A stretch of DNA of 38,836 nt from Bdellovibrionales bacterium RIFOXYC1_FULL_37_79 (GTDB taxonomy: Bacteria; Bdellovibrionota; Bacteriovoracia; Bacteriovoracales; Bacteriovoracaceae), in the NCBI GenBank assembly GCA_001770015.1, contig MEQB01000045.1:1-38836 (forward strand), given 5' to 3'. The notes under the pieces are model-generated. The model was not told the DNA's origin and ran no database searches. It was given only the letters and a program-made list of their open reading frames with translations. Positions 19,177 through 26,638 of this stretch are shown here, piece by piece. The translations under genes were made by a program, and so were the position numbers. Position 1 is the stretch's first letter, and each line of letters begins with the position of its first letter.

Positions 19177-20028
19177 TTAATCTAATAACCGAATAAGCTT
19201 ATGTGTTTTTTGAATAAAAAAATCTTTGTTCCATAGTTTTATTATTTCATTTTTATCTGGTTTTAAAAATTTAGCTATGTCTCTTCTAATGTCTTCCCAA
19301 TTAATGTTTACTATTTTTAATTCAAGCTGCTCTTTCAGCCAAGATGCAGTCACTAGTTGTTTTTTACCTTTCCATGGGCCAAGTTGATTTATTGCTCCTT
19401 GAAGCATTAATAAATTAATTGTTGATCCCTTGCTAATGAACCATAAGTAATCATACCAATCTCTTCCTTTGATATAATTTTTACATAATAATGCATGACA
19501 TTTCCCTGCGAATAGAGACGGTATGTCATGAGTCGTAATCATAAAGTCAGTAGGAAAATCTAAGTAATTAATTTCATTTTTAGCATCAATAGGTGGATTG
19601 ATATCCACTTCAACTTTAATTTGGATTTTTTTGCGTAAATCCTGGACATGCTTTAAGCTTAGCAATTTTTTTATACTCTCATCTTTTAAAAATCGTTTTT
19701 TTATATTGCTGTCAGCTTTGTCAATTCCTGAAACTTCTATCTTGTAACCATACACGTTCATCGTTTCAATTACAGTTTTCAAGTATGGTTGTAAATCAAA
19801 CTCAGGATCATAATTCCTCAATACAAAATCAAGATCCTCTGAAAACCGATCAAGGCCATGTACTATTCGCAAGCAAGTACCGCCTTGAAAAAAAACATTT
19901 TTAAAAAAACCAGCTTTGGCAAGGCCATATAAAGTTACTTCTTGGGTAATTTCTTTAATTGCATTTTCTTCATCATCTCTGGTTGTGCATCTATATGATT
20001 TTAATTTTTCCTGGATTACATCTTTCAT
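19177..20028 (-). CDS. abiEii: AbiEii-type nucleotidyltransferase toxin
   Basis: A DUF1814/AbiEii family protein of 283 aa. The nucleotidyltransferase signature is intact: FFQGGTCLRIVHGLDRFSEDLDF with G49-G50-T51, then D65 and D67. The third acidic strand is KVEVD (138-142), and the family motif KGRDWYDYLWF lies at 187-197. Characterised relatives act as toxins that transfer nucleotides to RNA, causing growth arrest during phage infection. It is the second gene of the pair, overlapping the antitoxin by 4 nt. No active-site loss is seen, so it is probably functional. Confidence 0.88.
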   Translation of the reverse strand: MKDVIQEKLKSYRCTTRDDEENAIKEITQEVTLYGLAKAGFFKNVFFQGGTCLRIVHGLDRFSEDLDFVLRNYDPEFDLQPYLKTVIETMNVYGYKIEVSGIDKADSNIKKRFLKDESIKKLLSLKHVQDLRKKIQIKVEVDINPPIDAKNEINYLDFPTDFMITTHDIPSLFAGKCHALLCKNYIKGRDWYDYLWFISKGSTINLLMLQGAINQLGPWKGKKQLVTASWLKEQLELKIVNINWEDIRRDIAKFLKPDKNEIIKLWNKDFFIQKTHKLIRLLD

Positions 20029-20669
20029 TTAAAGGCCTTTATAAGGATTTCGTATAATAGATAAATATTTTTTTTCTTATATGACTTTGCTAATATTTCA
20101 AGTTCCAGAATTGAGATCTTTGATATTTCTTGCAAAAGACTGCTTGGCTCAATTCTAAAATCATTTTCAATATCAAGTATCGAATTGTAATTTTTACGAC
20201 GAATATAAATAAGGTCAAAAAGAGCCTTCAAGGGAGATGCCATCAGTACGCCTCCCTCTTCTTTGTGGCTTTGAACTCCCATAAAAAAAGGTCTGCTCGA
20301 AATATAATCAAAAGAAAAGTTACCAAGATCATTTGAAAATGTTTTGTTTTTTCTTTGGAAACACGCAGAGGTTGTGGTGTAAACAGCTTCTGGAATTAAT
20401 CCGTGGTATGAAAGAGCTGATTCAAATGATATGTAACTTGGATCGTATAATTTATTGGCAACGACTAACTTTGAAATTGAACCTCTTTGTAAATTTTTTG
20501 CAAATAAATATAATCCTCTCTTAAGCTTTAAAAATTCACGAGTTTCAAGGGATCTAGTTATTCCGCTATGAATCGCAGGATCAGTAATTGAATTAAAAAT
20601 GGTTTTTATATCTTGCAAGGTAAAGATGTCCCTCTTTATGTGCTCTCTTAATTTATATGCAAAATCCAA
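20025..20669 (-). CDS. abiEi: AbiEi-type antitoxin/transcriptional repressor
   Basis: A 214-aa protein with an N-terminal winged-helix region (FTLQDIKTIFNSI to FLKLKRGLYLF) and the AbiEi core (DPSYISFESALSYHGLIPEA, then TTTSACFQRKN). In AbiE systems it represses its own promoter and opposes the toxin. The start is TTG at 20667-20669, supported by GGAG 7 nt upstream. The 4-nt overlap with the toxin gene and the repeats at the promoter fit a classical type IV toxin-antitoxin unit. Confidence 0.85.
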   Translation of the reverse strand: MDFAYKLREHIKRDIFTLQDIKTIFNSITDPAIHSGITRSLETREFLKLKRGLYLFAKNLQRGSISKLVVANKLYDPSYISFESALSYHGLIPEAVYTTTSACFQRKNKTFSNDLGNFSFDYISSRPFFMGVQSHKEEGGVLMASPLKALFDLIYIRRKNYNSILDIENDFRIEPSSLLQEISKISILELEILAKSYKKKNIYLLYEILIKAFK

Positions 20670-20840: not shown

Positions 20841-20864
20841 AAATAAAAAAATCTCCCCTATAAT
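20841..20864 (+). promoter_or_regulatory. perfect -10 box directly before an ATG (possible leaderless gene)
   Basis: TATAAT at 20859-20864 lies six bases before ATG 20871. A weak -35 (TTAAAA) lies 17 bp upstream. Transcription would start at or next to the A of the ATG, and no ribosome binding site is present, so the message may be leaderless. Confidence 0.45.
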
Positions 20865-20870
20865 TTATAG

Positions 20871-23084
20871 ATGAGCAGCCTTCACGTAATAATCACCATT
20901 CTTGTTTTATTCTTGTCTGGAATTGACATAATTGAAGCTAAAATTAATGTATTAGCACTTGATTTTAATCAAACCACCGAGACCGATGTCTTAAAGAATT
21001 TGTCCAAAGAATGTTCTGAGGATATGGAAATTAAAAGTGCCTTGGATGATGAAACATTATCCGGTGAACCTAAGGATAAAATTTTACAATTATGTGAATC
21101 AGGATATGCACCAGATGTGATCATGATATCAGGTCATTATGCATCTGCATGGTCTGGAGATAGAGGATCACTTACGTTGGTCGAATTGGAAAAATTGTCG
21201 TGTAATCCTAAATGTAATAATTTTTTCTCTAAAGTTAAGATTGGATTTTTTCTAGCATGTAATAATCTTATAAAAACCGCCAAAACCAACGAAACTGCAG
21301 AACAGTTTATGAGACGTATTTTGGAGGAACATCAGGATCGGTTTGGTCCAGATAATGCCATTGATGCAGGAATTGATATGTTTGAAGGCGAAAATGGGGA
21401 TACAAACGCACGTAGATTATCTGATATATTTTCTAATTATAAGGCAATGATGGGGTTTGATGGGGGCGCACCTCTTAGTGGCAAAGAGGGTGGCAAGTCA
21501 GAGATCGGATTTAAAAATGTGTTTGAAAAGCTCAAGCAGAAAACCAAATCAAAAAATATTTGTGAAGGGTTAGGCAAAATACTTGAAAACGATAAAGAAA
21601 AATCTCTTGATCCGCTGGTCAAATTATTAGATTCATGGAAAGAGGAGATGAATAAAGTTGAAGCTCAAGGACATGGACAAGATGCCGCTTATTTGTGTCA
21701 GCAATGTTTTGATGGTTCTAAAATCAATAGTGAGGAAGTGCCAAGAACAATAATTTGTGATCTATTGAGTGAAGATAATGAACGCATAACAAATGCCATA
21801 ACAGAAGTGCTTATAAATCCTGCTTGGCTGGATAGACTTTTTAATAAAATGGCTCAAGCGATAGAGATTATGTGTGGGGATGAAATTCCGTGTGCCAAGT
21901 TAAATATAACGAAGGATCAGAAAAATTTATTGCTAGAGATTGCCAGGAAAAAACTTAAATTCTATCCCTCGTTGGTGCATAAGTGGTCTGCTCTTAAAAT
22001 GATACTGTATCTACATAAAAAAAATGACTCGTTAGTATTGGAGCATTCAGAACTTTTTAAGAAATTGTTGAATGATTATATGAAAAGTTCCCAGGTAATT
22101 AATCGAGATGTTTTTAGACAGACTATCCTGGAAGCTCCTTTGCCAATAATTGAGAAAAATGCTGATGAGTTGTTTTTACATTATAAGACGACTGAGGATA
22201 GAGAGCTCAAGCGTGATATATATGATTGTTTTGCAAAGACCTTGGGGGCCTATAAGGGGACCATATTTCTGGATAACGTTCATAATTATAAATTTTCTTC
22301 AGATAATAAATATTTCTATATAGTTTCATTTGATGGATTAATCAAAGTGTTTGAGATTAATGAGAAAGATGAAAAACTTAAAAATCTTGGAGGGAATATA
22401 ATCAAACAAAATCAAGTCGCATGGGGTGTTGATATATCAGCAGATGGTAAATATATAGCGATAGCATCAAGAGATAAAACGGTAAAGGTTTATAAAACTG
22501 GTAGAGGGCTGCTTTCTGAACTTGGGGGAGAGGAAATCAAGGCCAATGAAGATTTTCGTAGTATTGCCATATCAAAGGATAGTAAATATGTGTTAGCGAC
22601 TGCATTCTCTGATGGAATAATCAAAGTGTTGGAGATTAAAGACGAAAAACTTAAAGAACTGGGTGGGGATAAAATTCAGTATCATAAAAATGACGTCTTG
22701 AAAGTCGATATATCAGAGGATAGTGGATATGTAGCGACGGCGTCAAGCGATGGAACGGCAAGGGTTTATAAAATCAGGGATGGAACACTCATAGAACTCA
22801 AGGGTGCTAAAATACAGTCAAAAGAAGGATTCTATCGTGTGTCCATATCTGCGGATAATAAATATGTTTCTATAGGCCAATTTGATGGAGCACTAAAAGT
22901 GTTTAAAATTAGTGATGAAAATCTTGTTGAGATCGCAGAAGATGAGATTAAAAAACATGAGATTCTTACCAATAAGGATAAATCATCAGACAAGTATAGA
23001 ATAATAATTTCACAAGAAACTGGTACCGTACAGTTATTTAATGCTAATAAGGATGATGGACGGTTAGTTGAATTTGGAAAATAA
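20871..23084 (+). CDS. exported caspase/CHAT-like domain fused to a WD40-type beta-propeller
   Basis: A 737-aa protein with three regions. A signal peptide covers residues 1-23 (core VIITILVLFLSGI, end IIEA). Residues 24-200 resemble a clan CD peptidase (caspase/CHAT type): a hydrophobic strand ends in ISGHYA with H89, followed by SLTLVELEKL and a second strand ending in GFFLACNN with C130, the expected His-Cys spacing and context. Residues about 205-460 are helical, possibly HEAT-like. From about 465 to the end are about six propeller repeats with SADGKYIAIAS.D.TVKVYK-type patterns. It is probably a periplasmic or secreted protein. Its substrate is unknown, and the caspase-like call is by motif only. 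A small exported Cys-rich gene follows after 17 nt. Confidence 0.65.
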   Translation: MSSLHVIITILVLFLSGIDIIEAKINVLALDFNQTTETDVLKNLSKECSEDMEIKSALDDETLSGEPKDKILQLCESGYAPDVIMISGHYASAWSGDRGSLTLVELEKLSCNPKCNNFFSKVKIGFFLACNNLIKTAKTNETAEQFMRRILEEHQDRFGPDNAIDAGIDMFEGENGDTNARRLSDIFSNYKAMMGFDGGAPLSGKEGGKSEIGFKNVFEKLKQKTKSKNICEGLGKILENDKEKSLDPLVKLLDSWKEEMNKVEAQGHGQDAAYLCQQCFDGSKINSEEVPRTIICDLLSEDNERITNAITEVLINPAWLDRLFNKMAQAIEIMCGDEIPCAKLNITKDQKNLLLEIARKKLKFYPSLVHKWSALKMILYLHKKNDSLVLEHSELFKKLLNDYMKSSQVINRDVFRQTILEAPLPIIEKNADELFLHYKTTEDRELKRDIYDCFAKTLGAYKGTIFLDNVHNYKFSSDNKYFYIVSFDGLIKVFEINEKDEKLKNLGGNIIKQNQVAWGVDISADGKYIAIASRDKTVKVYKTGRGLLSELGGEEIKANEDFRSIAISKDSKYVLATAFSDGIIKVLEIKDEKLKELGGDKIQYHKNDVLKVDISEDSGYVATASSDGTARVYKIRDGTLIELKGAKIQSKEGFYRVSISADNKYVSIGQFDGALKVFKISDENLVEIAEDEIKKHEILTNKDKSSDKYRIIISQETGTVQLFNANKDDGRLVEFGK

Positions 23085-23101
23085 AGATAGGGAATGAACT
23101 A

Positions 23102-23491
23102 ATGAATAAGATTTTTATAGCAATAATTATAGGAGTTGGCGCCATTGGTCTTGAAGCAAGTGAATTAGATTTATCAAAATGTGAATTTATAAAACATAAG
23201 GATAAAATTTCCAAGGATTATAAGCTATGCAAATGGGGTGGTTGGAGTGTTTTTTATAAAAAGGGGAATATTCGCTTGGCTGAGTATGTAGGTTCCGGAA
23301 AAACCCATGTGACACCAAATGCTAAAGGGTATCAAGTGAAGATCTTTGATATTAAAAATGTGGCAGATTATGTGGTTTCGATTATAGACAAAGAAACACT
23401 GATAAAATGTTTTAAATGTAAAATACCACCAGTGGTTGATATTCAAAATAAGACCCAGACAATGAGTTGTTCTTGTAAGGATGAAAAGTGA
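23102..23491 (+). CDS. small exported cysteine-rich protein of unknown function
   Basis: A 129-aa protein with a signal peptide (MNKIFIAIIIGVGAIGLEA, cleaved before SELDL). The mature part has six Cys residues: one near the start, one in KLCKWGGW, two in KCFKCK and two in SCSCK. This suits disulfides or metal binding in the periplasm or outside. It is not recognised. AGGGA precedes the ATG at good distance, and the 17-nt gap from the caspase-like/propeller gene suggests one operon and a joint role. Confidence 0.65.
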   Translation: MNKIFIAIIIGVGAIGLEASELDLSKCEFIKHKDKISKDYKLCKWGGWSVFYKKGNIRLAEYVGSGKTHVTPNAKGYQVKIFDIKNVADYVVSIIDKETLIKCFKCKIPPVVDIQNKTQTMSCSCKDEK

Positions 23492-23884: not shown

Positions 23885-24166
23885 TTAGGTGATGCTTCTA
23901 TCGATTTCAATTCCTCCATCTGTGGCAACATCTTGAAGGCAGTCCCATACTGCCGTTTTTACATTTTGAACGGTAATTTTATTTTGCTGATTTTTGGCAA
24001 TAGGAATTATAACTTCATCTGCAAAAGAAGAACCAAGCGAGTTAACGCCTAAAAAATCTAGGCAGACGGGATACTCAATATTTCGCGCAATTTTTTCCAT
24101 AGTATCTTTTCCAAACTCTCGTCCAGTTAAAACACTTCCGTACTTATTCATCATTAATATTTTCAT
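23885..24166 (-). CDS. STAS-like DUF4325-type protein
   Basis: A 93-aa protein with the DUF4325 pattern: a short N-terminal strand, TGREFGKDTMEKI, then the core VCLDFLGVNSLGSSFADEVI. These STAS-like modules resemble anti-anti-sigma proteins and are usually coded beside a GHKL ATPase, as here. Its ATG (24164-24166) lies inside the end of the upstream gene, a 23-nt overlap, so they are coupled. AAAGGA lies 11 nt upstream. An inner ATG (24152-24154) is also possible. Confidence 0.75.
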   Translation of the reverse strand: MKILMMNKYGSVLTGREFGKDTMEKIARNIEYPVCLDFLGVNSLGSSFADEVIIPIAKNQQNKITVQNVKTAVWDCLQDVATDGGIEIDRSIT

Positions 24167-25280
24167 ATCGATTTATTTCCTTTGTTAAAAAGTTATCTGC
24201 TTCTTCTCTGGTATTTTTATTAAATTGGTGATCAATATATAAAAAACCAAAACGAGTGCTCTGAGCGTCCAATAAAGGCGGTTCGATCCTTGTTATTTTC
24301 GCTTTATCGGTTATTTGAAAATCAAATTTAAAGTCAATATTTCCACTCGACACTCTAACAAGAGATTTATTTCCCATTGCAATTGATAGAATATCTGTTA
24401 AGCCTTTGCCTCTTTTATACTCATCATCCCAGGAGGAAACATTTTGTTTAAAGGCATTTAAAATTGCCATGTGATCACTTAGGTTGCTGTATTTAGGATT
24501 TTGTTTGAGTGATTTGTGTATTCCTTGCCCGACGTCTGCAACTCCTATGACGACACATTTTGAGTTTTCTCCTACGCTATACCTTTGGGCCTGAATAAAA
24601 CACATCTTATTTTTAAGTAAATTTCCATCATGAGTGAGAGAATTATCGGCAAGTTCTCCTATTAACCATCCGATATAACCACCAATTTCATCTGAAAAGC
24701 CCTGTTGGATAAACAACGTGTTTAATTGTTCAATAACTCTTCTCTCTTCTCCTTTTCTTCGAAGAATTGTTATTGATAAAAGTGAGTCAGGTGGAAAATA
24801 TTTTTCTCCTTCTAATATTTTTTTATTGTATTCAACCAACGGGGCAAATTGATCAATATAATTAAAAAAGCCGACATGTCTTAATTTTTTGCATGCCTCG
24901 GAAGTATTAATCAAAAGTTGTGTTTTTTTACTTTCTCTTGACCTGCTAATTAAATAAACTAACAAGGACAGTGTCCCATAAGGGTCAATGTAGTGGACCC
25001 CCCTTAAGTCAACTATATTTTTTTTTGCTTCAAGATTTATAGTATCTTTCGTGGAAATAATTTCTAACTGACCAGTTGGTATGACCCATGAGGTGACTTC
25101 GTCATTTTTTCCTTGAAGATATTCTTCAATTGCCTTTTTTGAAAATTTAACCCTTTTACCAATAAGGGTTTCAAATTTTCCTAGTGTAGTTGTTTTTCTC
25201 ATCATTCGAAGTGTAGGGATAGATATTCCCAACATTTTGGCTACCTCTGTAACTGACAAATATTCTGATTCTTTACTCAC
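24144..25280 (-). CDS. helix-turn-helix / STAS-like / GHKL-ATPase regulatory protein
   Basis: A 378-aa soluble protein with three parts. Residues 6-56 form an excisionase/MerR-like helix-turn-helix (LSVTEVAKMLGISIPTLRMM, then a wing GKRVKFSKKAIEEYL). Residues about 65-150 look STAS-like (NIVDLRGVHYIDPYGTLSLL). Residues about 175-330 are a histidine-kinase-like ATPase with N-box E209/N213/H217 (GELADNSLTH), G1 D249-V-G-Q-G253 and G2 G291-K-G-L. There is no phosphoacceptor His domain, so it is more like an anti-sigma-type switch kinase that could bind DNA. The start is GTG at 25278-25280. The DUF4325 partner overlaps its end. Confidence 0.75.
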   Translation of the reverse strand: MSKESEYLSVTEVAKMLGISIPTLRMMRKTTTLGKFETLIGKRVKFSKKAIEEYLQGKNDEVTSWVIPTGQLEIISTKDTINLEAKKNIVDLRGVHYIDPYGTLSLLVYLISRSRESKKTQLLINTSEACKKLRHVGFFNYIDQFAPLVEYNKKILEGEKYFPPDSLLSITILRRKGEERRVIEQLNTLFIQQGFSDEIGGYIGWLIGELADNSLTHDGNLLKNKMCFIQAQRYSVGENSKCVVIGVADVGQGIHKSLKQNPKYSNLSDHMAILNAFKQNVSSWDDEYKRGKGLTDILSIAMGNKSLVRVSSGNIDFKFDFQITDKAKITRIEPPLLDAQSTRFGFLYIDHQFNKNTREEADNFLTKEINRYENINDE

Positions 25281-25780: not shown

Positions 25781-26638
25781 ATGAATATATTCAAGTTAAC
25801 AATATTCATGGTGATGCTTAATATTGTACTTTTATTTGAGAGCAATATTTGCGTTGCTGGCGCAATCAATGATTGTTTAAAAACAGAAATTGGTGATAAG
25901 TCTGGATTAGAATTTTATACAGATAGAGAAAATTTATTAAAAGCTGAACGGATTTCTCGTTCTAAATCTCTGACTTCAAAACTCAAACCCATAAGCGGAA
26001 GAGTCAAGTCTCCAGTAGAAGATAAAATTCGTACATTAGAAATTGATGATAAAAAGGGGAAGAAATATTTAAAAGGAACAACTGGTGCAGTTCTTTATAC
26101 GCTTGAAGACGGAACACAGGTCGTTTTTAAACCGATAAATTCTAAATGGCAGTCCAATTATCGTGCAGAAGTTTTAGCCTACGAGATTGACAGGCTATTT
26201 GGATTTAATCTTGTGCCTGAAACTTCTGTTCGCAGAATCAAAGGGAAATTGGGCTCGGTACAAATTTATAAAAAAAGAAATAAATTGATTACCCCCAGAG
26301 AGTCAGAATTAGATAAGCAAAGTTTTTTTGATTTTTTAATAGATAATGGTGATAGAAATAGCAGTAATTTTTTTGTGGCGGATCAAGGTAATATTGTTTC
26401 AATAGATCATGGTACAAGTTTTACAGGTACTGGGTGGAGTTATAGAAGTTTTGAGGAACGTCACCAAGAAATTGAGAGATTTTTAAAAAGCACAGAAGGC
26501 AAAATAATTATCAAAAATATGAGAGAGAAAAATATTAAAACTCTTGAAAAAGAGGTGGAAAATTATATTGGAAAAAAGGATGCAAAGAGATTTATAGATC
26601 GCTTGCAATATATTCTTGAATATACAACCGTAAGGTAA
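25781..26638 (+). CDS. exported protein-kinase-fold protein (HipA/FAM20/PI-kinase-like)
   Basis: A 285-aa protein with a signal peptide (hydrophobic MVMLNIVLLFESNICVAGA, cleaved near 28). The mature part has the main kinase-fold landmarks: a glycine-turn strand GTTGAVLYTL, Lys117 in VVFKP, Glu130 in YRAEVLAYEID, the catalytic loop FLIDNGDRNSSNFFV with D188/D191 and N196, and the metal-binding D209-H-G211 in VSIDHGTSF. This pattern is seen in bacterial PI3/4-kinase-like and FAM20/HipA-related proteins. The predicted export is unusual because ATP is scarce outside the cytoplasm. No ribosome site at proper spacing is seen: AAGAGG directly abuts the ATG, and TAAAAT lies 6 nt before it. Neighbours give no pathway. 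Confidence 0.68.
   Translation: MNIFKLTIFMVMLNIVLLFESNICVAGAINDCLKTEIGDKSGLEFYTDRENLLKAERISRSKSLTSKLKPISGRVKSPVEDKIRTLEIDDKKGKKYLKGTTGAVLYTLEDGTQVVFKPINSKWQSNYRAEVLAYEIDRLFGFNLVPETSVRRIKGKLGSVQIYKKRNKLITPRESELDKQSFFDFLIDNGDRNSSNFFVADQGNIVSIDHGTSFTGTGWSYRSFEERHQEIERFLKSTEGKIIIKNMREKNIKTLEKEVENYIGKKDAKRFIDRLQYILEYTTVR

Follow-up and report, generated by a model that had tools for sequence, protein, structure and literature searches.

CHAT and clostripain (C11) peptidases share the clan CD fold and occur in bacteria. The core of this caspase/haemoglobinase fold consists of strands in the order 2-1-3-4 with helices a1-a3, and the clan is further marked by a glycine next to the catalytic His and by an aromatic residue that is conserved in loop 5, behind strand 5 (PMC4357240). 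Prokaryotic caspase homologues carrying WD40 or HEAT modules are already known: bacterial metacaspases and orthocaspases include WD40- and HEAT-fused as well as N-terminal-TM forms, and possible signal peptides have been reported among them (PMC3501461). For this reason, a preliminary description of the present locus went too far in calling bacterial caspase-like/WD40 fusions usually cytoplasmic. The family reported here resembles these enzymes (PF00656) in its predicted caspase fold, its His/Cys dyad and its fusion to interaction repeats, and a possible signal peptide is sometimes common to both. It differs from them in that PF00656 does not match it, in that hhalign could not align the family with C14 proteins of its own phylum, and in an export signal found throughout the family. 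With metazoan caspases (MEROPS C14A), the proteases that execute cell death in animals, the family shares the predicted order of strands and helices, the His after strand 3 with the small hairpin behind it, the Cys after strand 4, and a Cys-containing stretch with a KPK-type segment that runs up to the nucleophile. Unlike those caspases, the family is predicted to be exported, has conserved non-catalytic Cys residues and GHF in place of HG, is without a clear sixth strand and carries helical and repeat modules at the C-terminus; pairwise comparison of the two gave no significant sequence similarity. Gingipain (C25) and clostripain (C11) are likewise extracytoplasmic clan CD peptidases, but show no sequence match to the family and were absent among the listed fold matches.

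In the present study, the window (the whole stretch of 38,836 nucleotides that was analysed) was found to encode on its forward strand, at 20871..23084, a protein of 737 amino acids. It begins with a Kyte-Doolittle hydrophobic stretch assigned as a signal peptide (residues 1-22, 20871..20936), which is probably cut after IEA. The caspase-like domain that follows (residues 23-208, 20937..21494) was assigned by the order of its elements in AF2 models, by Foldseek and by profile matches to caspases, and contains the predicted catalytic His89 (21135..21137) within ISGHYA and the predicted nucleophile Cys130 (21258..21260) within GFFLACNN. The middle region (residues 209-457, 21495..22241) is all-helical in the AF2 model and HEAT-like by position, HEAT repeats standing C-terminal to the domain in other members. 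The C-terminus is a WD40-type beta-propeller (about residues 466-737, 22266..23081), for which Pfam gave WD40/beta-propeller matches at about 468-728 (WD40 E 4e-18; PF00400 65 bits, cut-off 27) and AF2 gave six blades at 470-736. After 17 nt, a second open reading frame (23102..23491, forward strand) encodes a small exported protein of 129 amino acids with six Cys. Pfam found no match in residues 1-460 of the larger protein or in the small one, and PADLOC gave no meaningful match for either. The signal peptide, the His/Cys pair in a clan CD-like context, the helical middle, the approximately six WD40-like repeats and the six-Cys neighbour, all noted in the preliminary description, stood up to the analysis.

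Upstream of the protease gene, a candidate -10 box (TATAAT, 20859..20864, forward strand) lies 6 nt before the ATG. It scores 10/12 with a -35-like TTAAAA, a kind of match no commoner here than in shuffled sequence, and the arrangement TATAAT-N6-ATG recurs before each of the three WD40 copies, although the surrounding sequence has diverged. This arrangement suggests a leaderless mRNA for the protease gene. The small gene is preceded by a Shine-Dalgarno-like AGGGA (23089..23093, forward strand), and AGGGA or AAGGGA stands before it in 3/3 copies. Among the other genes of the window, an AbiEi/AbiEii type IV toxin-antitoxin pair (19177-20669) lies directly upstream of the protease gene on the opposite strand, and an overlapping pair at 23885-25280 (reverse strand) encodes an HTH plus possible STAS-like protein and a DUF4325 STAS-like protein. 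At 25781-26638 (forward strand), an exported-looking protein of 285 amino acids has a PI3/PI4-kinase match over the Pfam cut-off (29.9 bits) together with weak Fam20C and HipA-like matches, and is a candidate exported kinase.

The fold of the N-terminal domain was predicted by AF2 on the full protein with an alignment of 81 rows. The elements obtained were b1 (25-31), a1 (36-48), b2 (52-56), a2 (67-76), b3 (83-90, with His89 at its end), a small hairpin (93-102), a3 (103-120), b4 (124-130, ending in Cys130) and b5 (192-195), with pLDDT of 84-96 for about residues 21-130 and lower values from Cys130 to b5. Because a Foldseek search of the full model against PDB was dominated by propeller proteins, the domain was also modelled alone, which gave the same elements (pTM 0.77). 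In both models, the predicted order is the one that the caspase/haemoglobinase fold requires, with His89 after strand 3 and Cys130 after strand 4 as in clan CD; F196, directly after b5, supplies the loop 5 aromatic, and no antiparallel sixth strand was recognised. All 50 of the 50 listed Foldseek matches of the isolated domain in PDB were caspases (E 5.8e-5 to 6e-4, probability 0.96-1.0), the best being caspase-3 and -7. The TM-scores were about 0.3 with an rmsd of about 14, probably because the part after Cys130 was modelled at low confidence, and they support the local fold pattern and not an overall superposition.

At the sequence level, most top matches of the family profile to PDB sequences were caspases, with His aligned on His and Cys on Cys, at E values of 0.07-0.2 that are not significant alone. 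Pfam models for C14, C11, CHAT, C25, C13 and C80 gave no match in 21 domain sequences even at E up to 1, the only weak peptidase match being a single C50 at E 0.15. The Peptidase_C14 (PF00656) cut-off was not reached by the window protein or by any of these 21 sequences, and the host genome is without any PF00656 protein. Among the NCBIfam matches listed, none fell on the N-domain; they were to repeat-type models or, in a single member (L054), to histidine-kinase models. The histidine-kinase-like C-terminus of that member was rejected as a real module since it starts inside the HATPase profile and looks like a contig artefact.

By these results, the N-domain belongs to a family of exported clan-CD-like peptidases that is undescribed and centred on this phylum; the window protein is a divergent member of it. 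A single-sequence search with residues 1-465 found relatives in 16/143 related genomes, and a profile of 21 domains (A1), used against 369 genomes of the phylum, found the family in 99 of them, or about a quarter. The full window protein used as a single query over genome contigs retrieved no relatives, probably because its pattern peptides are genus-specific, whereas an alignment of closer members did find them. In named genomes, 61 loci were recovered, nearly all of them in organisms labelled as Bdellovibrionota types (Bdellovibrio, Pseudobdellovibrio, Bacteriovorax, Halobacteriovorax and Oligoflexia) and a few in betaproteobacterial and 'Deltaproteobacteria' MAGs; by record name the carriers include B. 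bacteriovorus strain kdesi and Bdellovibrio sp. qaytius. After removal of duplicates, the family comprises 86 distinct proteins, most complete members having 478-1109 amino acids. The preliminary description had called this locus the best candidate for an undescribed system in the window; it is not an isolated one, since its protein belongs to a family found across the phylum. The searched viral contigs and plasmids held no relatives, which gives no sign of a phage or plasmid element. Members in betaproteobacterial MAGs were seen on three contigs (L125, L128 and L133), two of them in tandem on L128. These contigs have 59-68% GC and L133 carries apparent ordinary housekeeping genes, which makes transfer out of the phylum plausible; such transfer and a binning error are both possible origins.

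Conservation of the predicted dyad is nearly complete over the 82 aligned domains, with His89 in 81 (one Glu) and Cys130 in all, while the typical identity of homologues to the window domain is about 22%. Such conservation argues that the His/Cys pair is not due to chance. Ser87, Asn33 and Glu37 are likewise found in 82/82, Gly88, Phe187 and Gly195 in 81/82, and position 196 is always aromatic (79 Phe, 2 Tyr, 1 Trp). Where a His-Gly motif is usual, the family has Gly-His-Phe/Tyr, so that the glycine precedes the His and Phe or Tyr stands where caspases have Gly. The sole member with a replaced catalytic His (L042, 2875-5385, SGEF) is possibly a pseudo-peptidase beside an intact paralogue of the same genome (L035). 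A hydrophobic N-terminal stretch precedes the domain in 85/85 members checked by a hydropathy rule rather than by a signal-peptide program. Further conserved Cys are found at 28, 75, 81, 111 and 115 of the domain, and one near residue 295 in 66/71 full-length members. C28 and C81 are jointly absent from the three WD40 proteins of the window genus, and C75 and C115 from a divergent paralogue in the genus mate G001. Because each pair is lost jointly, the alignment suggests that C28 is bonded to C81 and C75 to C115, only one of these disulfides remaining in the window protein; each joint loss may be a single event. A very long stem, of 6.8 changes per column, leads to the three-member clade of the window protein.

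The modules behind the domain are variable. Among 71 full-length members, at least 17 have recognisable HEAT repeats, and WD40 repeats are confined to the window genus. The C-termini of the others were not recognised; those of Bdellovibrio-type members include a conserved tail with Cys. In G001, the locus (L023, 5108-13390, reverse strand) is a tandem array of a WD40 copy with its small gene, the divergent paralogue, which has an array of about 37-residue alpha-type repeats and no WD40, and a second WD40 copy with its small gene. With ruvA nearby in both species, the two loci appear to be orthologous. The window protein has six blades and the two G001 orthologues about seven, which in one of them are nearly identical to each other. 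Identity between the species is 75% in the catalytic domain and 41-46% in the propeller. The dN/dS was 0.08-0.15 for the N-domain versus 0.30-0.42 for the propeller, and the between-species values were 0.13-0.15 versus 0.30-0.32, with synonymous sites near saturation. A slow enzyme domain next to a faster propeller would fit a conserved enzyme with a changing binding surface.

The small gene lies 12-17 nt downstream of all three WD40 copies. Homologues of its product were found only in the window genus (one in the window, two in G001), and their six Cys are invariant. Over the mature part, a dN/dS of about 0.09-0.14 indicates strong purifying selection. No relatives were found in PDB, in Pfam or in a phylum-wide search; borderline matches (E 0.004-0.009) were set aside, half of them having internal stops. 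There was no homologue of the small gene beside any other family member, including the third, non-WD40 paralogue of the G001 array. Hence, the pairing of WD40 protease and small gene is real within the genus, where the three pairings descend from one locus, and the co-occurrence proposed at the outset does not extend to the family. No neighbouring gene recurs across the family, whose contexts are unrelated, except for orthologous synteny beside mur-like cell-wall synthesis genes in Bdellovibrio.

Our preferred reading, with a probability of about 0.68, is that the window protein is a cysteine peptidase of a clan-CD-like (caspase) fold, exported and catalytically competent, with a binding module and a partner. 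The signal peptide would direct it out of the cytoplasm by Sec, the N-domain would form the caspase/haemoglobinase core with His89 and Cys130 as the dyad, and the helical middle and propeller would bind substrates and offer them to the protease, as a module that changes quickly in evolution. More weakly, cleavage after basic residues may be indicated by Asn33 and Glu37, which do not vary in the family and lie where, in clan CD, a loop and a helix give the S1 pocket its shape. It is quite unlikely that the protein is a non-proteolytic scaffold, whose caspase-like domain would serve to bind or signal and whose His/Cys pair would be structural or a periplasmic redox sensor. Catalytically dead caspase and orthocaspase domains are described for bacteria (PMC6426788), about 70% of one effector class is reported to be inactive (PMC7159879), and the other conserved Cys of the domain would suit such a role; pseudo-enzymes usually drift, however, and here the dyad has been lost in only one member and is otherwise almost without variation, despite the high divergence of the family. 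Membership among the CHAT or clostripain (C11) peptidases is the least probable reading. C11 does have the clan fold (PMC4357240), but the structural comparison with caspase, gingipain and CHAT folds that had been proposed for the domain gave a caspase-like topology with caspases as its only listed matches, and the profile matches were mostly caspases. The proposed profile search for C11, C14 and CHAT gave no Pfam match in the 21 domain sequences and so no placing in these families by sequence. Of the initial label "caspase/CHAT-like", the first half is supported, and the domain is not specifically CHAT-like.

The role of the small protein allows further readings. Under the preferred reading, this disulfide-rich exported product of the next cistron would bind the protease in the window genus as a chaperone, an activator or an inhibitor. 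A narrower proposal is that it is a dedicated inhibitor or immunity protein and that the protease acts on rival or prey cells. It is favoured by the precedent of staphylococcal protease-inhibitor operons, by the adjacent, co-translated exported gene in 3/3 WD40 copies, by the six invariant Cys, by strong purifying selection and by the many predators in the phylum. Against this, other members without the small gene indicate that the protease has no general need of it, Pfam scans of ten window genes revealed none for delivery, and family members stand in unrelated contexts; we consider this proposal possible but somewhat unlikely. That the small gene is a chance neighbour, functionally unrelated and merely co-duplicated with the WD40 copy, has about the same low probability as the scaffold. 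Only two species are concerned and the G001 copies are tandem duplicates of one locus, which makes the three pairings non-independent; yet, over about 0.75-1.4 synonymous changes per site, neither gene has been disrupted or parted from the other, and the divergent G001 paralogue between the copies has no small gene.

The most likely role of the protein is that of a substrate-recruiting putative protease, periplasmic or secreted, whose substrate may lie in the envelope or in prey. A broader picture can be drawn, which we regard as speculative and less likely than the dedicated inhibitor: a periplasmic or secreted caspase-like family with exchangeable modules (HEAT, WD40 and others), by which Bdellovibrio-like predators would cut envelope proteins of prey or rivals, with the genus-specific partner restraining the protease until release. 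For any role in predation, caution is called for by the presence of the family in only about a quarter of the phylum's genomes searched and by contexts in which no common neighbour suggests a pathway. In the literature on Bdellovibrio with caspase-like or metacaspase, nothing of this kind was found by title and abstract. A quantitative predation proteome names the protease Bd2269, and neither "cysteine" nor "caspase" came up when its text was searched (PMC12546842).

What is new here is an exported family that is invisible to current models and centred on one phylum, with a GHF motif at the His, conserved non-catalytic Cys and a genus-specific partner. Based on these predictions, Bdellovibrio-like bacteria probably use caspase-like cutting enzymes outside the cytoplasm. 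The finding adds to the caspase-fold peptidases an exported family missed by current domain models. For the proteases still unassigned in Bdellovibrio-like bacteria, among them named Bdellovibrio strains, it offers a concrete class of candidates. With its fast propeller beside a slow catalytic domain, it may also allow the idea to be tested that exchangeable repeat modules target a protease.
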